In this document: positions 10,663 through 24,422 of the stretch, piece by piece | Position numbering within the stretch: position 1 is the stretch's first letter | How the letters are laid out: each line of letters starts with the position of its first letter | Assembly (NCBI GenBank): GCA_021324415.1 | Contig: JAJPJF010000205.1 | Span: 1-37,463 of the forward strand | Source of the DNA: Nostocales cyanobacterium Centralia_MAG_434 | Lineage (GTDB): Bacteria > Cyanobacteriota > Cyanobacteriia > Cyanobacteriales > Nostocaceae | DNA: 37,463 nucleotides | Direction: 5' to 3' | The notes under the pieces: model-generated | The model's input: the letters and a program-made list of their open reading frames with translations, nothing else | Database searches by the model: none | Told to the model about the DNA's origin: nothing | Position numbers and translations under genes: made by a program

Positions 10663-11790
10663 GTGAAAATTCCTCCATTTGATGCAACTTGTCAGTATCA
10701 AAGTATACGTTCTGATATAGAAAAAAGCATCTGTGCAGTCATGGCTGCTGGACGTTATATTATGGGTCCTCAAGTCAAGGAGTTTGAAGCACAGTTTGCT
10801 CAGTATTTAGGTTGTCCTCAAGTCATCTCCTGTAATTCGGGTACAGATGCATTGCATTTGGCTCTGAAGGCATTGCGAATTGGTCCTGGTGATGAGGTTA
10901 TTACTGTACCTTTTACTTTTATAGCTACGACAGAAGCTATTGGTATAGTTGGAGCGACTCCAGTCTTTGTCGATGTAGATTTAAATACTTACAATATCGA
11001 TACGAGTCTGATTGAGGCAAAAATCACAGAACGCACCAAAGCCATCTTGCCAGTACATTTGTATGGGCGTCCTTGCAACATGACAGCAATCATGGAGATT
11101 GCCCGCAAGTATAATCTTAAAGTGATTGAAGATTGTGCCCAAGCAACTGGAGCAACATGGGCAGGGAAAAAAGTAGGGACAATTGGGGATGTTGGTTGTT
11201 TTAGCTTCTTTCCTACGAAAAATCTTGGTTGTTTTGGGGATGGGGGAGCAATAGCAACTTCTGATCCTATGATTGCCGAGCGAGTTGAGTATTTACGCCG
11301 TCACGGAGGTAAAATTAAGTATCAGCATGAAGAACTAGGACTCAATAGTCGTCTCGATACTGTACAGGCAACCGTCTTATTGGTAAAACTGCCATATTTA
11401 GATCAATGGAATGAGGCAAGGGCTGCGATCGCGGATTATTACATCAGTCAGCTAGCCAAAGTAAAGGGCGTTGTTCTACCTAAAGTTGAGCAGGAAGGAA
11501 CGTCTGTTTGGAATCAATTCACAATCAGAGTTTTAGATGGACAACGCAATCAAGTGCAAAAGCTTCTCAAGGAGAAGGGGGTTGAGACAATGGTCTACTA
11601 TCCTATCCCGCTGCACCTACAGCAAGTACATGCTAACTTAGAGTATTCTCTGGGCTCACTACCCGTGAGTGAACAATTGAGCCATGAAGTCTTGTCCTTA
11701 CCAATGTTTCCAGAACTGACTGCACCAGCACAACAAACCGTGACTGAGTCTGTTAAGCAAGCGTTAGCAAATATTTACTCTTCTGTGTGA
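10663..11790 (+). CDS. wbpE: DegT/DnrJ/EryC1 aminotransferase (WbpE-like)
   Basis: 375 residues, GTG start at 10663. PLP enzyme that aminates the 3-keto sugar made by WbpB, usually with glutamate. Visible: CNSGTDALHLALKAL (about 58-72), the PLP-ring Asp in VIEDCAQATGA, and the Schiff-base Lys186 in FFPTKNLGCFGDGGA. A C-terminal small domain contains SVWNQFTIRV and MVYYPIPLHLQ, both typical of sugar 3- and 4-aminotransferases. The stop overlaps the start of the next gene (TGATG), so translation is coupled. The WbpE assignment rests on the family plus the operon. Confidence 0.9.
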   Translation: MKIPPFDATCQYQSIRSDIEKSICAVMAAGRYIMGPQVKEFEAQFAQYLGCPQVISCNSGTDALHLALKALRIGPGDEVITVPFTFIATTEAIGIVGATPVFVDVDLNTYNIDTSLIEAKITERTKAILPVHLYGRPCNMTAIMEIARKYNLKVIEDCAQATGATWAGKKVGTIGDVGCFSFFPTKNLGCFGDGGAIATSDPMIAERVEYLRRHGGKIKYQHEELGLNSRLDTVQATVLLVKLPYLDQWNEARAAIADYYISQLAKVKGVVLPKVEQEGTSVWNQFTIRVLDGQRNQVQKLLKEKGVETMVYYPIPLHLQQVHANLEYSLGSLPVSEQLSHEVLSLPMFPELTAPAQQTVTESVKQALANIYSSV

Positions 11791-12194
11791 TGAATTCCCC
11801 AGCATCAACTTCACGGCTGAAACTGATCTCATATACAGCTTTGTTTGCCAGTATTGGATTCGGTATCATTGGGCAATTGCTAATGAAACATACTATGAGC
11901 AATAAAGCTGGTGGATTCTTGACATGGGCATTTGTTCAGCAATTAGCATTGGCATTGACTATCTATAGTTTGGGGATTATCAATTGGATCTTTGCATTGC
12001 GCTCAGTAAAGCTGAGTATAGCGTATCCACTCACTAGCCTAAACTACGTTGGCATACTTCTAGGTTCGTATTACTTTTTTGGTGAAAAAATCACACTGAT
12101 TCGAGTCGCTGGAGTCGCCTTGATTTTTATGGGAGTTCTGTTGGTAGCTCTTCCAATTAAGAATCGTAGATCCTTTCAAGAAGATGCTAGATGA
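11790..12194 (+). CDS. Small four-helix membrane protein, EamA/SMR type (ArnE/ArnF-like), subunit 1
   Basis: 134 residues from ATG 11790, overlapping the aminotransferase stop; a GTG one codon earlier is possible. Four hydrophobic helices at about 12-31, 47-68, 72-96 and 102-121. Helix 1 carries GFGIIGQLLMK and lacks the Glu that drug-export SMR proteins such as EmrE need for proton coupling. The loop before helix 4 has FFGEK. Known: ArnE/ArnF are paired SMR-like proteins that move undecaprenyl-phosphate-L-Ara4N across the inner membrane. A second such gene follows directly, so the two may form a heterodimeric flippase for a polyprenyl-phosphate sugar. The cargo is unknown. Confidence 0.75.
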   Translation: MNSPASTSRLKLISYTALFASIGFGIIGQLLMKHTMSNKAGGFLTWAFVQQLALALTIYSLGIINWIFALRSVKLSIAYPLTSLNYVGILLGSYYFFGEKITLIRVAGVALIFMGVLLVALPIKNRRSFQEDAR

Positions 12195-12227: not shown

Positions 12228-12587
12228 ATGAAAATAATTTCTTGGCTGATTTTAGTACTTATAGTTGTGCTGGGGACAGCAGGACAGTTATCGCTAAAAT
12301 ATGCATCTCAAAGTCCTTCTTCCGATAAGAAAAATAGCAGTTCAATCCGAGATTTGTTGTTTTCGCCTTATTTTTGGGTTTGGTTCGTTTCCTATGTAGT
12401 AGTGACTGGATTATGGCTATTTGTTTTGCGAAGTCTTCCTCTCAGTCAAGCATTTCCTGCTTTGGGATTGACATTTGCTCTAGTTCCATTGGCATCATAT
12501 TATTTTCTTCGGGAGAAAGTAGTATTTAGCCAGTGGTTGGGAATAGCAATTATTGTAGCTGGTGTAGTTTTGGTAGCTCAAACATAA
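12228..12587 (+). CDS. Small four-helix membrane protein, EamA/SMR type (ArnE/ArnF-like), subunit 2
   Basis: 119 residues. Four helices at about 3-22, 44-63, 68-90 and 98-117. It shares with its neighbour the helix-1 pattern G-x-x-GQLxxK (GTAGQLSLKYA), a helix-3 start LPLSQAFPALGLTFALVPL and the pre-helix-4 motif FLREK, so the two are paralogues. It also lacks the EmrE-type Glu. The polar insert SPSSDKKNSSS after helix 1 is not in the first copy. The likely role is the second half of a polyprenyl-phosphate-sugar flippase; the direct neighbours (SDR, FAD oxidoreductase) may make the sugar. Confidence 0.75.
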   Translation: MKIISWLILVLIVVLGTAGQLSLKYASQSPSSDKKNSSSIRDLLFSPYFWVWFVSYVVVTGLWLFVLRSLPLSQAFPALGLTFALVPLASYYFLREKVVFSQWLGIAIIVAGVVLVAQT

Positions 12588-14994: not shown

Positions 14995-16140
14995 TTGAAC
15001 AACAGTATATTCAAGGTTTTACGACGGTGCATGCTTGCCAATAAACTTTTTTCATCGGCAACGATGGTGGGTCTTTCCTTTAGCTTGTTTATGACAGGTC
15101 AGGCTTTTGCCTTCACTTTTACTAAAATTGCTGATACCAACGATCCTGTATTTCGTAATTTTGGCTTCTACCCTGCAATTAATAACAAGGGGACAGTAGT
15201 CTTCTCGGCTAACTTAAATGCGGATGGTCAAGCTACTGGTATCTACATCAGCAGTGGAGACGAGACAACCACTACGATTGCTGATACCAATGGACCCTTT
15301 AGCTTATTTGGAAATGCTCCTGCAATTAATGACCAAGGAATTGTGGCATTCCGAGCTAATTTGAAGACTATAGGGAGTGGTATTTATACTGAGAGTGATG
15401 GGGTAATAACTACCATTTCAGAAAGCACAGAACCTAGAGGGATCTTTGAAGATCCAGTCATCAATAATGAAGGTACCATAGCTTTCTCTGCTTCTACTCA
15501 AGGAGGAAGCGCTATCTTCATCAGTAGTGATGGGGTAACGACCAACGCTACGGATACCGTTAATCCTTTTAATAGCTTCAATGGATATACCATTAATGAT
15601 ACAGATACTGTTGCTTTCTCTCCAAACTTGAATTTAGGAGGAAGTGGGATCTTCACTCTTAACACTGGGGTAATGACTACCATTGCTGATACTAGCGATC
15701 GTTTTAGCTTCCTCTTTCCTCCAGCCATCAACAACATAGGTACAGTGGTCTTTAAAGGTGTACTGAATCAGTTGGCAGGTGAGGGAATCTATACCGTTAC
15801 TAACGGTATAACAACCACTATTGCTGATAATAGTAATTCCTTTAGCTTCTTCGAGAATCCTGCAATCAATGATCAAGGCACTGTTGCTTTCAAGGGAGTT
15901 CTAAAAGCAGGAGGCTTGGGTATTTTCACAGGTCCAAATCCAGTGACTGATAAAGTTATTGCTGCTGGTGATGCTCTGGATGACTCAACAGTAACAGACC
16001 TTTATTTCTCTAAGAAAGGGCTAAACAATAGTAATCAGCTTGTCTTCTATGCCAAGCTTGCGAATGGCACCACTGGTATTTTCCTTGCTGATCCTGAGTC
16101 TGATCCCTTCAGCGCTGATCCTGAAAATTCTCAGGAATAA
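14995..16140 (+). CDS. Exported protein with seven 'IN-x-x-G-x-V-F' beta repeats (DUF7453-like)
   Basis: 381 residues from TTG 14995 (AAGGT 5 nt upstream); ATG 15031 is an alternative and would leave a cleaner signal peptide. A hydrophobic segment (TMVGLSFSLFMTG) ends in QAFAF, a likely signal-peptidase I site. The rest is about seven repeats of 44-50 residues with the pattern IADT...F-x-x-PAINdxGtVaFxaxL...GIyt. Such repeats usually fold as beta-propeller or beta-helix blades. No catalytic motif and no PEP-CTERM tail are seen. Known for the family: little. Inferred: a periplasmic or extracellular surface protein linked to the polysaccharide. It is the first of three envelope proteins inserted in the sugar cluster. 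Confidence 0.75.
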   Translation: MNNSIFKVLRRCMLANKLFSSATMVGLSFSLFMTGQAFAFTFTKIADTNDPVFRNFGFYPAINNKGTVVFSANLNADGQATGIYISSGDETTTTIADTNGPFSLFGNAPAINDQGIVAFRANLKTIGSGIYTESDGVITTISESTEPRGIFEDPVINNEGTIAFSASTQGGSAIFISSDGVTTNATDTVNPFNSFNGYTINDTDTVAFSPNLNLGGSGIFTLNTGVMTTIADTSDRFSFLFPPAINNIGTVVFKGVLNQLAGEGIYTVTNGITTTIADNSNSFSFFENPAINDQGTVAFKGVLKAGGLGIFTGPNPVTDKVIAAGDALDDSTVTDLYFSKKGLNNSNQLVFYAKLANGTTGIFLADPESDPFSADPENSQE

Positions 16141-16525: not shown

Positions 16526-19500
16526 ATGATGCAAAAAGACTATGATCATGAGTTATTAATAGCTCAGGCTCAAACTAATGAAACTGTATTTACAACTCAG
16601 ACGCCAAGTAACCCAAATGTTACTGATGGCACCTCCTACGAACTAGGAATGAAGTTTCAGAGTGCTGTAGCTGGTCAAATTACGGCAATTCGCTATTGGA
16701 AAGCATCTAGTGAGACAGGCTCCCACACTGGTAAAATCTGGGCATCAACGGGTGGCACTCCCCTAGCGACTGTGACTTTCTCAAATGAGACAGCTTCAGG
16801 TTGGCAACAGCAAGCTCTCAGTACCCCACTGAATATTCAAGCCAATACAACCTATGTAGTGAGTGTCAACTGCAATAGCTATTTCGTTATCACTTACGAT
16901 CAATTAGCTACCTCAATTGTTAATGGTGATCTCAACTCAGTTGCTGACGGTAATAATGGGGTATTTGGTAATGCAAATTCTTTACCAACCAATTCTTACC
17001 GCAATAGCAACTATTTTCGTGATGTAGTCTTCTCTGCTGTCAGTACGCCAACCATTACCAAGGCAAGCGGAGATAATCAGACTGGTACTGCAGGAACTGC
17101 CTTGCCTAATGCTTTGGTTGTTCAAGTCAAAGATGGTTCTGGCAATCCCCAATCAGGAGTTACAATTAACTTTGCAGTTACTAGTGGTGGTGGTTCAGTA
17201 TCTCCCACTAGTGCAGTTACCAATGCTAATGGTCAGGCAAGCACGGTGCTGACTTTGGGAGCTGCACCTGGTGCAACAAGTCCAGTCACAAATACTGTAA
17301 CTGCTACAGCTTCTAGCATAGGCAGTGTCACCTTCACTGCTACAGCTAATCCTGCAGGAGGAAGTGGTAACGAAAGCATCTTCACAAATCAGACACCAAG
17401 CAACCCCAATGCTACTGATGGGACCTCATATGAACTGGGTATGAAGTTCAAGAGTGCAAAAGGGGGTCAAATCACAGCGATCCGTTATTGGAAAGCAGCT
17501 AGTGAAACTGGTAGCCATACTGGCAAAATCTGGTCAGCAACAGGTGATGTCTTAGCAAGTGTGACTTTCTCAAATGAAACAGCATCAGGTTGGCAACAGC
17601 AAGCTCTTAGTGCACCGCTAAGCATTTTGGCAAACACGACTTACGTGGTCAGTGTTAACGTCAATTCTTATTTCGCCGTCACTAGTAATCAATTGGCAAC
17701 CTCTATTGCTAATGGCGATCTCAGTACAATCGCTGACGGAAACAATGGAGTCTATGGTGTTATCAACACGTTCCCAACCAATTCCTATAGCAACAGTAAC
17801 TATTTCCGCGATATAGTTTTCGTTGCTGGCAGTTTCCTCAATAAGGTAAGTGGTGATAATCAAAGTGGTGCAATAGGAAATGCCCTACCAAATCCTTTAG
17901 TTGTACAAGTCCTAGATAGTTCTGGCAATCCTCAGTCTGGAGTCACAGTTACCTTTGCAGTTACTAGTGGTGGTGGTTCAGTTTCACCCACTAGTGCCGT
18001 CACTGGTAGTAATGGTCAAGCTAGTACAGTGCTGACGTTGGGAACAATACCCAGTGGTCCAAATGATGCTGTCATAGTGACTGCAACGGCTTCAGGGGTT
18101 GGCAGTGTTACCTTCAAAGCCAAAGCTGCTCCAGCAAATCCTAATCCCATTTACATAGAAAACCAAAACACTGGCACTACAAACTGGAAAATCACTAACC
18201 AAACCACAAACGAAATAGCTGGCTATGCAACAGCCACTAGTGTCAATAAGGGTGGTAGCCTAGACATCAAAGTTTCCCTAGCACAACCAGGAAATTTCAC
18301 AGTCGATGTCTACCGCTTAGGTTACTACCAGGGTACAGGTGGTCGGCTGATGAAGAGTAGTGGTCCACTCAGTGGAACAACTCAACCTGCGTTTACACTC
18401 ACTGACGCAAATACTAATCTCTATCAAGGTACAAACTGGTCCACTTCTTACACTATATCAGTCGATTCTAGCTGGACTAGTGGTTTATACATTGCTAAAC
18501 TCACTGACCAAACAAGTGGTAAGCAAACACAGATATGGTTTGTTGTTCGTGATGACAGCAGTACATCAGATCTATTGTTCCAGAGTTGTTTCACAACCTT
18601 CCTCGCTTATAGCGCTAGCAGTGGTTATAGCTTGTACCCATTTAATAGTACAAATGGTCAAAGAGCATTTAAGGTTTCTTTCGACCTACCATTCTCGGAA
18701 ACCACCACTTTGTCTGCAGAGTTTAATAATTTACTCCGCTGGGAATATAATATGGTGCGGTGGTTAGAGTCTCAAAGTTATAATGTGTCCTATGTGACTA
18801 ACATAGATGTCCACTCAAACGCACAGTTGCTGCGGCAGCATAAAGTATTTTTGTCGGTAGGTCATGACGAGTATTGGTCTCTAGAAGAGCGGACTAATGT
18901 TCAACAAGCTCGTGATGCTAACCCTCCGGTTAACTTGGCGTTTTTCTCAGCCAACACAGCCTATTGGCGAGTACGTTTTGAAAACTCTAACACTGGGCAA
19001 CCCAACAGAGTTATGGCTTGCTATAAGGATAATTGGTCACAAGATCCAGTTGCACCTACTAATAAATTCCGCAGTACGCAAAATAATCTGCCAGAAAATG
19101 CGTTACTGGGAGTTATGTACACAGGCGATCGCGACGATGTTTATGGTGGTTATAATTTTATTGTAGCTAACAGCACTGACCCATACTACGCTCATACTAA
19201 TCTTAACAATGGAGATTCACTGGGTCAGTTAGTAGGTTTTGAATGGGATGCAGTGGTTAACAATGGCGCGACACCAAGCGGATTGGTTGTTCTATCGCAA
19301 TCCACAGTTAGTCCAGTCGATATCGATGCAGATCTCCCACCAGGAACAAATACACAGGTATCCAACGCAGCCCGTTACACGGCAGCAAGTGGGGCTAAGG
19401 TTTTTGCAACAGGATCTATTCAATGGTTATGGGGACTAGATAGCGATAGCGTGCAGACACCACGTACAGATCCTCGTGTCAAGCAAATAGCAGTGAACAT

Positions 19501-19558
19501 CTTGGCAGATATGGGTGTCAGACCACAAACTCCAGATGCCAGCATAATTTTATCTTGA
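16526..19558 (+). CDS. Modular DUF4082-Ig-DUF4082-Ig protein with N,N-dimethylformamidase beta-like C-terminal domain
   Basis: 1010 residues; ATG 16526 has AAGGA 8 nt before it, and an in-frame stop at 16511 rules out a longer start. Order: DUF4082 (about 18-175; ELGMKFQSAVAGQITAIRYW, HTGKIW, ASGWQQQ), Big_1-type Ig domain (about 178-278; GDNQTGTAGTALPNALVVQV), second DUF4082 (282-435), second Ig (440-537), then about 540-1010 resembling the large subunit of N,N-dimethylformamidase (YRLGYYQGTGGR, VGHDEYWS, NTAYWR, GFEWD). Tyr783, Tyr813 and Glu906 are candidates for the two-Tyr-one-Glu iron site known in that enzyme. No signal peptide is seen, which is odd for Ig-bearing proteins. Substrate unknown; amide or sugar-amide hydrolysis at the surface is a guess. 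Confidence 0.85.
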   Translation: MMQKDYDHELLIAQAQTNETVFTTQTPSNPNVTDGTSYELGMKFQSAVAGQITAIRYWKASSETGSHTGKIWASTGGTPLATVTFSNETASGWQQQALSTPLNIQANTTYVVSVNCNSYFVITYDQLATSIVNGDLNSVADGNNGVFGNANSLPTNSYRNSNYFRDVVFSAVSTPTITKASGDNQTGTAGTALPNALVVQVKDGSGNPQSGVTINFAVTSGGGSVSPTSAVTNANGQASTVLTLGAAPGATSPVTNTVTATASSIGSVTFTATANPAGGSGNESIFTNQTPSNPNATDGTSYELGMKFKSAKGGQITAIRYWKAASETGSHTGKIWSATGDVLASVTFSNETASGWQQQALSAPLSILANTTYVVSVNVNSYFAVTSNQLATSIANGDLSTIADGNNGVYGVINTFPTNSYSNSNYFRDIVFVAGSFLNKVSGDNQSGAIGNALPNPLVVQVLDSSGNPQSGVTVTFAVTSGGGSVSPTSAVTGSNGQASTVLTLGTIPSGPNDAVIVTATASGVGSVTFKAKAAPANPNPIYIENQNTGTTNWKITNQTTNEIAGYATATSVNKGGSLDIKVSLAQPGNFTVDVYRLGYYQGTGGRLMKSSGPLSGTTQPAFTLTDANTNLYQGTNWSTSYTISVDSSWTSGLYIAKLTDQTSGKQTQIWFVVRDDSSTSDLLFQSCFTTFLAYSASSGYSLYPFNSTNGQRAFKVSFDLPFSETTTLSAEFNNLLRWEYNMVRWLESQSYNVSYVTNIDVHSNAQLLRQHKVFLSVGHDEYWSLEERTNVQQARDANPPVNLAFFSANTAYWRVRFENSNTGQPNRVMACYKDNWSQDPVAPTNKFRSTQNNLPENALLGVMYTGDRDDVYGGYNFIVANSTDPYYAHTNLNNGDSLGQLVGFEWDAVVNNGATPSGLVVLSQSTVSPVDIDADLPPGTNTQVSNAARYTAASGAKVFATGSIQWLWGLDSDSVQTPRTDPRVKQIAVNILADMGVRPQTPDASIILS
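16577..18130 (+). repeat. Tandem intragenic duplication, 792-bp period
   Basis: Codons 18 onward and 282 onward encode the same DUF4082-Ig unit, offset 264 residues. DNA identity remains high in places, for example GCAGTTACTAGTGGTGG begins both Ig cores. The second Ig half is shorter and differs most in its last third. This points to unit duplication followed by drift, and the locus could gain or lose units by recombination. Confidence 0.8.
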
Positions 19559-19582: not shown

Positions 19583-20587
19583 ATGAATCTGAGAATAAGA
19601 CGCCGAAGATTTGGTCAGCTGGTAGTCGCTACAGCTGCCTCTACGGCGATCGCCAACTTTGCAAGTAAAAGCATTGCACAAACGTCGCCATCAACCATTT
19701 ATGGGCTAACTCTCAGTGCAAACAAAGCTCCATTGGCTGTAGGTAACGCTATCACAGCTATAGGAAGTGGTATTGATATCACCAACGTAGCCAATAATAC
19801 CCCTGGAGTGGTTCTAGTCTCTTCAGATGTAAATACTGGTAATCAGATATCAACCTTACAAGTTGCTGCAACAACAGTTGACAATCAAAACACGCCTATC
19901 GAGGCTGCAAATAAAGCCATCTCTCGAGAGCCTAGCGAGCGCCTAACTGCTTTGAGTGCCCTATCCAATGGCACATTTGTTGCTGTCTCTGTAGTTAACT
20001 CAAACAAAGGTGATGTTAGTCGCCTTATACTTATCAATCCTAAGTCTGCTACTCCAATAGCTCGAAAAATATCAGGATTCAAAAAGAGCAATAGTACAGT
20101 TGAAAGTTTGCTAGCAGCTAGAGATGATACACTCATTGCCGTTGTTAGTCAAAATGGAGGCATTCCGCCTTTTGAGTTGGTGACTATTGATCTTAAGTCA
20201 GGAAAGGTTAATTATAACAACGGTTTGGGTCTGCCAGATCTCTTACCCAACATTAGGTTAAGTAATCTGGCCCAATCTTCAGATGGGACTTTTTATGCTA
20301 CCTTTCTTGAAGCACAAGGCGGAACCTCTTTGGTGCAGATAGACCTGAAAAACAAGTCGTTAATCACTGGTAAGGGAAGAATTATCAACCAACAGCGTCT
20401 CACATTAAACGGAAAGCCTTTGGCAAATGACTTAAAAAGCCTGGTTTTTTCTAGTTCAGACCAACTCTTCGCGTTGGCTGATGCTACATACGAAGGCACC
20501 AATTCTTTGCATACTGTGAATGTAAAAACCGGAGAGGTCACGCTACTCAGGAAATTCCCAGTTGATAAGATTGCTTTTGCTCGTTAA
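19583..20587 (+). CDS. Tat-exported protein of unknown function, probable beta-propeller
   Basis: 334 residues. The N-terminus MNLRIRRRRFGQLVVATAAS has a twin-arginine motif (Arg7-Arg8-x-Phe10), a mild hydrophobic core and a likely cleavage near SIAQ-TS (about 33), so it should be exported folded by the Tat system. The mature part has repeating beta-like segments such as LTALSALSNGTFVAVSV, LVTIDLKSGKVNY, LAQSSDGTFYATFL and LHTVNVKTGEVTLL, a pattern seen in propellers that read 'value-gain' strands. No catalytic motif is recognised. It lies 24 bp after the 1010-residue protein gene, probably in the same transcript, so the two may act together outside the plasma membrane. Confidence 0.75.
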   Translation: MNLRIRRRRFGQLVVATAASTAIANFASKSIAQTSPSTIYGLTLSANKAPLAVGNAITAIGSGIDITNVANNTPGVVLVSSDVNTGNQISTLQVAATTVDNQNTPIEAANKAISREPSERLTALSALSNGTFVAVSVVNSNKGDVSRLILINPKSATPIARKISGFKKSNSTVESLLAARDDTLIAVVSQNGGIPPFELVTIDLKSGKVNYNNGLGLPDLLPNIRLSNLAQSSDGTFYATFLEAQGGTSLVQIDLKNKSLITGKGRIINQQRLTLNGKPLANDLKSLVFSSSDQLFALADATYEGTNSLHTVNVKTGEVTLLRKFPVDKIAFAR

Positions 20588-22697: not shown

Positions 22698-24422
22698 GTG
22701 AAGCGTCCTCTACAACTTGATCTATGGCTATGTGTCGTGATAGCTTCTTTTGCTTTACTTGTCTGGGCAAACTGGGGCAAACTCGAAAATCCAATCATTG
22801 ATATTGGGCGTGAAGTTGAAATCTCAGCTAGACTAGCTGATGGACAGTTTCTTTATCGCGATGTAGCAACTTACTATACTCCCTTAGGTTACTATGCCAA
22901 TGCTCTAGCACTATTGCTGTTTGGTCATCATCTTGAAGTATTTTACATAGTCAATCTGCTCTTAGCATTGGTCGCAACACTGCTATTTTATAGATTGGCA
23001 AAGCGGTTAATGAATCCCCTATGGGCTACTCTTTGCAGTATTTGCATGTTAATTTACTGTGCCATAGGTCCAGGACCGTTCAACTTTATCATGCCTTACA
23101 GTCATGGCGCAGTCTATGCTATAGTTTTTAGCCTGGTAGCCATTACTTGTCTCGATTATTACTGTACATCTCAAAAGCAATTGAGATGGCTGGTGGCTGC
23201 TGGGATCACATGTGGATTAGCAGGGCTTGCCAAGCAAGAGTATGGAGTAGCGGTGCTAGGAGGAGTTCTGATAGGTGTTAACGTTCAGACGGATAAAACA
23301 TTAAGAAGTAGGCTGAAACAAAGTATACTTGTAGCTTTAGTAGCATCAATTTGCGTAATAGTACCACTTAGCATCTATGCTCAACAAGTTTCTTGGGAGC
23401 AGCTGTTTTCATCATTGTTCCCGACATCTCAAATCGGGGCTATTAACCGTGGCACAGTTTCACTCAGCAGAACGCTTAGTGTATGGTGGTCTACTTTGAA
23501 AGTGTTCATAGTTGCTTCATCCCTGATTTTGGGATCATTAGTAGTAGCTCATAGGCTGTCAAATTTTGTTAAAGTTCCCAAAAAGTTTAGGAGTCTAGCT
23601 GAGGGACTGTTAAGCCTTGCTTTTTCATTGCTTGCTCTATATTTGCTGAATCGCTCATCAATTTTTAGTAATTATAATTACTATCCTCCGAACGCCAGTT
23701 TTAACCCTTTGGAGGATTTATCCTGGGCACTGCCACTATTAGTTGGATGGTTTTCTTTGGCCCGAAAGCAACTATCTCTGTCTAAGCATGCACCACTTTT
23801 GTCAGCATTGCTAGTTTTCTCATTAATATTGAATGCCCGGTGGGGATTTTATATAAATTTCTATGGGTTATATGCTTTACCAGTAATTATTTTATTTTTT
23901 ACGCTACTGTACAATATACCTCAGCGATTTAAAAGAGTAGTGTGCCATTACTTAGTGATTTGTCTTGTCATCAGCGGTACATTCAAATTGGGTGGTTTAC
24001 TAATTCGTTATCCTCATGCAGTACACTCATCTTCCGGTAGTTTTTATGTAAAAAATGCTTCTCTTGCTCAAGCCCTTAACCAGACAGTAGCGGCTATTGA
24101 TGCTGCGAAAGTATCTTCGGTACTCATATTGCCTGAAGGGAATATTTTGAATTTCATGACAGCAACTCACTCACCTAGCCGAGAGCTTACCTTCCTGCCA
24201 CACGTTCTTCCTACTGCTAGGGATGAGCAAGCGTTTATTGCTGATATGCAGATGCATCGGCCTGAACTTATTGTCTATGTCCCTCGTCCATTTGCAGAGT
24301 GGGGTTATCAAACCTATACAGACTTTAATCCACTGGTTGATCACTGGATTACTCAGCAGCATCGATTAGTTCATAGTTTTCCGATAGACAGCAGTAAAAT
24401 TCGGATTTACGTAAGCAAATAA
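22698..24422 (+). CDS. GT-C-like integral membrane glycosyltransferase (PMT/ArnT-like)
   Basis: 574 residues from GTG 22698. A first helix (about 6-24) is followed by a large loop with IIDIGREVEISARLADGQ and LYRDVATYYTPLGY; acidic residues here are where GT-C enzymes such as ArnT/PMT hold their catalytic Asp. Many further hydrophobic helices follow (for example 75-97, 100-150, 155-190, 270-300, 310-330, 370-420). The last 130 residues are soluble and probably external. It would transfer a sugar from a polyprenyl-phosphate donor outside the membrane. The GT2 two genes upstream and the SMR pair could be its donor route. Exact family not certain. Confidence 0.75.
   Translation: MKRPLQLDLWLCVVIASFALLVWANWGKLENPIIDIGREVEISARLADGQFLYRDVATYYTPLGYYANALALLLFGHHLEVFYIVNLLLALVATLLFYRLAKRLMNPLWATLCSICMLIYCAIGPGPFNFIMPYSHGAVYAIVFSLVAITCLDYYCTSQKQLRWLVAAGITCGLAGLAKQEYGVAVLGGVLIGVNVQTDKTLRSRLKQSILVALVASICVIVPLSIYAQQVSWEQLFSSLFPTSQIGAINRGTVSLSRTLSVWWSTLKVFIVASSLILGSLVVAHRLSNFVKVPKKFRSLAEGLLSLAFSLLALYLLNRSSIFSNYNYYPPNASFNPLEDLSWALPLLVGWFSLARKQLSLSKHAPLLSALLVFSLILNARWGFYINFYGLYALPVIILFFTLLYNIPQRFKRVVCHYLVICLVISGTFKLGGLLIRYPHAVHSSSGSFYVKNASLAQALNQTVAAIDAAKVSSVLILPEGNILNFMTATHSPSRELTFLPHVLPTARDEQAFIADMQMHRPELIVYVPRPFAEWGYQTYTDFNPLVDHWITQQHRLVHSFPIDSSKIRIYVSK

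Follow-up and report, generated by a model that had tools for sequence, protein, structure and literature searches.

How an enzyme with the build of an extracellular protein might leave the cell when it carries no signal peptide is the question raised by a gene in contig JAJPJF010000205.1 of Nostocales cyanobacterium Centralia_MAG_434. The stretch analysed, positions 1 to 37,463 of this contig and part of an 8.4-Mb cyanobacterial genome, is called the window below. The 1010-residue product of the gene ends in a domain related to the large subunit of dimethylformamidase (DMFase), and the next gene encodes a predicted β-propeller with a leader resembling those of the twin-arginine translocation (Tat) pathway. 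The best reading of the results, which we consider somewhat likelier to be right than wrong, is that the enzyme is a polysaccharide N-acyl hydrolase exported in the folded state by hitchhiking through Tat on its propeller partner.

Domain architecture and predicted iron site

The open reading frame (ORF) of the enzyme (Table 1) begins with ATG and has an in-frame stop five codons upstream of the start, as the preliminary description of this DNA had stated. Two consecutive DUF4082-Big_1 arms, of a kind typical of extracellular proteins, are followed by the Pfam domain DMFA2_C (PF20254), which covers residues 592-972 with an E-value of 5.8e-99 and 332.5 bits, the curated cut-off being 27 bits. 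DUF4082 (E 1e-78) and Big_1 (E 7.2e-12) were each found in two stretches. The arms are the tandem duplication that had been claimed: residues 18-277 and 282-537 are 74% identical over 260 columns, as is their DNA over 771 aligned columns. The enzyme was matched, at least in part, in 91 of the family's 192 genomes. The named matches that came closest, Aff. Roholtiella sp. LEGE 12411 and Plectonema radiosum NIES-515 (best segment 74% identical), are from a search that possibly left out records of the own genome.

Table 1. Coordinates of the enzyme, its partner and their features in the window.
Feature	Position	Strand	Basis
Signal-less DMFase-like enzyme, 1010 aa	16526..19558	+	ORF, Pfam
N-terminal motif LIAQAQ	16556..16573	+	own-genome pattern search; N-termini of relatives
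Arm 1: DUF4082 + Big_1 Ig	16577..17356	+	Pfam, self-comparison
Arm 2: DUF4082 + Big_1 Ig, tandem copy of arm 1 (74%)	17369..18136	+	Pfam, self-comparison
DMFA2_C match: part of Ig domain + catalytic part	18299..19441	+	Pfam; fold match
Tyr695, equivalent of DMFase Fe ligand Y399	18608..18610	+	profile alignment
Tyr704, equivalent of DMFase Fe ligand Y440	18635..18637	+	profile alignment
His780 + Glu782, equivalents of DMFase H519 (catalytic) + E521 (Fe ligand)	18863..18871	+	profile alignment
Asn810, equivalent of DMFase N547	18953..18955	+	profile alignment
Partner: 334-aa predicted β-propeller with Tat-like leader; proposed Tat carrier	19583..20587	+	
Leader of the partner, residues 1-33	19583..19681	+	alignment of 29 relatives

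In DMFase, iron is bound by Y399, Y440 and E521, while H519 is essential and N547 lies in the site (PMC7686228). A profile of 28 relatives of the enzyme was searched against the PDB sequences, among which the DMFase chain 6lvb keeps the numbering of that paper. The residues Y399, Y440, E521, H519 and N547 align with Tyr695, Tyr704, Glu782, His780 and Asn810 of the enzyme, all of them invariant in the 28 sequences and in 25 of 25 of another alignment. A mononuclear iron site of the 2-Tyr-1-Glu type, together with its His and Asn, is predicted for the enzyme from this alignment. Of the three ligands, Tyr704 is mapped with the least certainty, because in the chain of the Y440A mutant the alignment shifts around an insertion before Y440. 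An earlier choice of ligands, Tyr783, Tyr813 and Glu906, is ruled out by the alignment to DMFase and by conservation: Tyr783 falls on DMFase Tyr522, the neighbour of the ligand Glu; Tyr813 is replaced by Phe in four of the 28 relatives; and Tyr783 and Glu906, invariant as they are, yet align to no ligand.

When the predicted structure was compared with solved ones, residues 562-998 matched DMFase and N-acetyl-(R)-β-phenylalanine acylase with Z of 25.4-26.4, where 26.4 belongs to the acylase and 25.4-26.1 to DMFase in one set, a tie at the top; 394-407 residues align in each of six acylase and DMFase chains. By profile, the acylase was the best solved match (E 2.7e-19, against 1.9e-15 for DMFase). 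The proposed likeness to DMFase thus holds for the Ig domain plus the catalytic domain (562-998), and not for the pentraxin-fold domain II of DMFase (residues 74-337, inside the Ig domain), which is absent from the enzyme: the profile matches 6lvb residues 5-41 and 337-753, and there is no space for 260 residues between. With the large subunit of the Paracoccus DMFase (6lvb; PMC7686228) the enzyme shares the Ig-like and catalytic domains and the 2-Tyr-1-Glu site with His and Asn, whereas it lacks domain II, carries the DUF4082-Ig arms in front and is encoded in a polysaccharide cluster; DMFase, for its part, needs a 15-kDa small subunit for activity. The acylase (8i5a, 8huy), also among the best matches by fold, removes an N-acetyl group, going by its name, and is 20% identical to the enzyme over the aligned part.

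The window contains the Pfam families UDPG_MGDP_dh, GFO_IDH_MocA, Hexapep, DegT_DnrJ_EryC1 and Epimerase_2 (UDP-GlcNAc 2-epimerase), a gene set that we take to lead to diacetamido-uronic acids, and these families support the claim that a DMFase-type iron amidohydrolase domain is encoded among genes for N-acetylated sugars. The suggestion that a sugar amide is the target has gained weight, and N-deacylation is favoured, because an N-acetyl acylase heads the solved relatives in the profile search; the most likely substrate would be an N-acyl (N-acetyl-type) amide carried by the polysaccharide that the cluster makes.

Absence of a signal peptide as a family trait

The preliminary description had also been right that the enzyme has no signal peptide: the best 13-residue stretch among the first 50 residues averages only 0.56 on the Kyte-Doolittle scale. 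Throughout, an ORF is called signal-bearing if its 13-residue hydrophobicity maximum in the N-terminal part is at least 2.0 on this scale, which is a threshold and no predictor's call. Nearly all relatives from exopolysaccharide (EPS) clusters begin either directly with the first DUF4082 domain or after a few extra residues; L035 and L036 are longer because of upstream start codons, and L053, a tandem copy, begins with the Ig domain. A sequencing error hiding a longer N-terminus had been considered as a way out. It was rejected in view of these matching starts, since almost all of the species would need to share such an unseen 5' frameshift. The absence is therefore genuine and, judged by the starts of the relatives, the missing signal peptide is a trait of the family. 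Hydrophobic leaders are present in paralogues of the DMFA2 domain with 540-570 or ~1200 residues, and 20 of the 56 DMFA2 ORFs surveyed below are signal-bearing.

A leader-bearing partner encoded next to the enzyme

Counting the window, the enzyme gave 50 matches of at least 63% identity in the 192 genomes, and in 44 of them the partner lies downstream on the same strand, with a median of 42 nt and at most 420 between the two matches. Each of the 44 genomes in question contains a strong match to the partner. The partner trails the enzyme in polysaccharide clusters of differing composition, and among the genes of the window it is the commonest within 6 kb of 28 DMFA2 ORFs (24; the next ones 21 and 14). 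To see how pairing relates to signal peptides, 56 DMFA2 ORFs from loci L032-L071 and L220-L232 were surveyed, a selection among the match rows in which loci were picked by the enzyme and not by the partner. Twenty-four signal-less ORFs had the partner and 12 did not; of the signal-bearing ones, none had it and 20 did not. Partner copies were also seen elsewhere in the genome in G025, G143 and G151, whose DMFA2 genes have no adjacent partner, and at loci L113-L121 away from both DMFA2 and the galactose-oxidase-like genes described below.

The predicted structure of the partner is a β-propeller (mean pLDDT 80.6, best Z 16.2). The propeller-type family DUF5074 was not assigned, since its match (E 0.0032) is below the cut-off. 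In the leader, R7, R8 and F10 are invariant in 29 of 29 relatives, with only six invariant columns in the whole protein, and K29, A32 and Q33 are nearly so; in the wider set, RRxF occurs in 89 of 92 partners and a K/R in the c-region in 87 of 92. The hydrophobicity maximum of the leaders averages 1.5 (0.9-2.2), below that of most signal-bearing DMFA2 ORFs, the two ranges touching at 2.1-2.2. Searched against the own genome at an E-value limit of 0.001, the partner profile gave one further match, with E 1.3e-7, to the leader of a PaoA-like iron-sulfur protein. This protein is matched by NF008514 with an E-value of 2.9e-74, below the equivalog cut-off, and NCBIfam lists no Tat model on it; the gene after it encodes a leaderless FAD subunit. 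TatC is present in the own genome (G000:C212, E 4e-66). A co-encoded partner with a twin-arginine leader beside a signal-less cargo is the make-up of a predicted Tat hitchhiker pair, and by sequence the two genes have it.

A second enzyme family with the same partner

A galactose-oxidase-like gene precedes the partner at 12 places that are not next to DMFA2 (L122-L132; by Pfam on four). The families of these enzymes, PF09118 and Kelch, are unrelated to DMFA2; PF09118 gave 83 matches in 72 of the 192 genomes. A census of 80 such ORFs, in which none of 31 signal-bearing ones had a partner, was extended by L154 and G071:C104, which brings the latter count to none of 33. In the extended census, 42 signal-less ORFs had the partner and seven did not; of the signal-bearing ones, none had it and 33 did not. 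One place (G127, a 55-residue frame) yielded no ORF, and the galactose-oxidase-like ORFs of L143, L145, L146, L148 and L149, found via the partner, were left out of the 80. In the two censuses, L035 and L190 were set as signal-less by hand, because their hydrophobic stretch is an artefact of an upstream start codon. The signal-bearing L163 and L203 end at most 350 nt from a contig end, beyond which a partner is possible.

In the tree of partners, a branch with 100/100 support separates 47 of 47 linked to galactose-oxidase-like genes from 35 linked to DMFA2 and 10 standing alone. The closest solved relative of the partner-linked galactose-oxidase-like protein L123 is 4unm (E 6.2e-90; PDB title 'SECRETED PROTEIN'), which we take to be the Streptomyces copper radical oxidase GlxA. 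A putative signal sequence lies at the N-terminus of GlxA itself (PMC4736821), whereas the partner-linked cyanobacterial forms have none and stand next to a partner with a Tat leader instead.

Both families share a further feature at the N-terminus. A motif of the hydrophobic-IAQA/S/G type occurs in 13 of 35 partner-linked DMFA2 ORFs and 20 of 47 galactose-oxidase-like ones (L138, L123 and L145, for example), and in 0 of 12 and 0 of 7 of the respective partnerless signal-less ORFs, the window enzyme being excluded from the counts. Perhaps it is a docking peptide or a cleavage site. LIAQAQ was rejected as a genome-wide leader: the pattern has seven matches in the own genome, and the enzyme gene alone has one near the start of a long ORF.

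Two loci, L148 and L149, encode a galactose-oxidase-like enzyme fused to an Ig stretch that shares about 50% identity with the one in the window protein, and the partner follows; Big_1 matches the L148 stretch with E 8.6e-8, just below the cut-off. L156-L159 (L157 lies in the own genome, C218) are signal-less galactose-oxidase-like proteins of ~820 aa without an adjacent partner; an FG-GAP N-terminal region was found by Pfam in L156, and L157-L159 start alike.

Proposed mechanism of export

The preliminary description left export unexplained. The enzyme indeed has no signal of its own, and a candidate route is now offered by the Tat-leader partner encoded next door. In the mechanism we propose, the enzyme would be an extracytoplasmic iron amidohydrolase of the DMFase fold, with its two DUF4082-Ig arms as spacers or glycan binders. 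Still in the cytoplasm, it would fold and acquire its iron. We infer that the folded enzyme then binds the β-propeller encoded immediately downstream, and that the complex would leave through the Tat translocase on the twin-arginine leader of the propeller, with E. coli hydrogenase-2 and PaoABC as model systems for the export of complexes.

In E. coli, PaoA carries the signal-less PaoB and PaoC through Tat (PMC4273604); hydrogenases and formate dehydrogenases are further cases of hitchhiking, and one class of cargo is hard to find computationally (PMC10924467). PaoABC (PMC4273604) has in common with the present pair a small leader-bearing partner encoded beside signal-less metalloenzyme subunits, and the two are linked by the match between the PaoA-like leader of the own genome and that of the propeller partner. 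They differ in that the partner here is a predicted β-propeller to which no cofactor family was matched, the cargo is a polysaccharide-type hydrolase or oxidase and not a molybdoenzyme, and export is deduced from the genes. We give about even chances to the broader idea of a dedicated family of β-propeller Tat carriers in filamentous cyanobacteria and same-order relatives, each clade being fitted to its own signal-less metalloenzyme: one to the DMFase-like iron amidohydrolases of polysaccharide clusters, the other to GlxA-like copper radical oxidases. The hydrophobic-IAQA motif may then be a docking peptide. The pairing was not found in the literature on DMFA2, DMFase, Tat hitchhiking, propellers and galactose oxidase, and DUF4082 was mentioned in a single paper, most subscription journals lying outside the search.

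Several observations speak against this mechanism. The partner is not adjacent in six of the 50 matches (G151, G025, G143, G001:C52, the second G111 copy and G043:C134), nor beside 12 of the 36 DMFA2 ORFs without a signal, a 298-aa fragment included, and seven of the 49 signal-less galactose-oxidase-like ones; of these seven, L167 has, by eye, a Tat-like leader of its own. At least two of the 12 partnerless DMFA2 proteins carry DUF4347, and therefore another export route exists. In three of four loci (L065, L067, L068), a signal-bearing DMFA2-DUF4082 protein of ~1200 aa stands beside a signal-bearing DUF4082 protein of ~1530 aa encoded directly upstream, in which a WD40 propeller was confirmed by Pfam in L065; such pairs with signals of their own suggest that propeller pairing may serve function rather than export, and the propeller may double as a functional subunit. 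The Fisher values of the censuses, 3.7e-7 and 8.8e-16 (before the two additions), are overstated because homologues are not independent, and there was maybe one pairing event per enzyme family; the independent evidence is the same rule in two unrelated enzyme families. As for the leader, no more than 41 of the 92 contain a stretch that agrees with the regular expression used for an A-x-A cleavage site, the window leader reading S-I-A-Q, and curated Tat models barely fire on the partners, the best E-values being 2 (TIGR01409) and 0.38 (PF10518), each for one member of 29. The partner beside DMFA2 in L049 has no leader in the ORF call used, and the stand-alone copies L120 and L121 lack RRxF. When tested with a reporter, the putative signal of GlxA did not act as a Tat signal (PMC4736821). 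On the side of the enzyme, the AlphaFold loop 691-718, which holds Tyr695 and Tyr704, has pLDDT below 50, and the ligand mapping is sequence-based.

Alternative explanations

Part of these observations would fit an arrangement in which the enzyme and the propeller cooperate outside and travel separately, the propeller by Tat (or Sec) and the enzyme by a non-classical or ATP-binding cassette (ABC)-type route. We regard this as unlikely, though with a real chance of being correct: signal-less DMFA2 proteins without an adjacent partner do exist, some with an N-terminal DUF4347, the clusters contain ABC transporters, and signal-bearing DMFA2 proteins pair with a signal-bearing WD40 protein. What separate travel leaves unexplained is why the partner stands beside signal-less members of two families and, in the census, beside no signal-bearing one, as well as why its leader matches that of PaoA. 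A C-terminal type I signal, moreover, was rejected: the tail '..ADMGxxPxTPxxxIIVP', common to the signal-less members, has a similar stretch in mid-protein in the signal-bearing paralogues L065-L068.

Less probable still is a cytoplasmic enzyme whose substrate is a nucleotide- or lipid-linked sugar not yet exported, next to an unrelated envelope propeller. The EPS-cluster members without signal peptides and the biosynthetic enzyme genes on both flanks would be expected in that case; its low standing comes from the arms of extracellular type, from the hydrophobic leaders on homologues of the same domain (20 of 56 ORFs) and from the close pairing with a leader-bearing partner. That the DMFase-like domain might be a structural or glycan-binding module is quite improbable, given that all five active-site residues are invariant in the 28 sequences, even though no report on the activity of any cyanobacterial DMFA2 member was found in the literature searched. 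The hydrophobic-IAQA motif, which resembles the end of a signal peptide and recurs in two unrelated signal-less families on partner-linked members only, can hardly be a cryptic export signal with the partner incidental, for 22 of 35 and 27 of 47 partner-linked members lack it, many of them starting at the first domain, and no other long ORF of the own genome starts with it.

If export by hitchhiking on the propeller is true, Tat hitchhiking extends from respiratory-type redox complexes to enzymes of the extracellular matrix. Some cyanobacterial exoproteins have no signal peptide, and their route has been called elusive or poorly characterised (PMC4390845, PMC11424642); the main texts of these two exoproteome papers contain none of the terms that were tried for the present enzymes. 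A co-encoded Tat carrier would be a concrete, testable export route for two enzyme families. The DMFase-like domain would gain a place in the maturation of matrix polysaccharides, and a signal-less enzyme with a leader-bearing propeller next door would be a search rule for further hitchhikers.

Neighbouring genes and related proteins

A strict tie of the DMFA2 genes to the diacetamido-uronic acid pathway was dropped, as homologues of the pathway genes are not universal within 6 kb of the 28 DMFA2 ORFs (DegT 13, hexapeptide 11, GFO/IDH 2). So was a link to the heterocyst envelope (HEP) island, for which the literature listing gave nothing connecting.

Among DMFA2 proteins in polysaccharide clusters of other cyanobacteria, L058 and L060 carry DUF4347 as an N-terminal domain (Pfam) and no signal peptide; the starts of L088, L092, L093 and L096 are similar to theirs.

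In the window, two small adjacent EamA proteins (11787-12194, 135 aa; 12228-12587, 119 aa) share the cluster with a PMT_2 glycosyltransferase (22698-24422), a set that we assume to resemble an Arn-type flippase pair with its periplasmic transferase. The gene at 14995-16140 encodes an NxxGxxAF-repeat protein (TIGR05002, E 3.3e-42). Its relatives at L038-L040 and, less clearly, at L053 and L055 end, by eye, in a PEP-CTERM-like tail, which suggests that this protein is linked to an exosortase.

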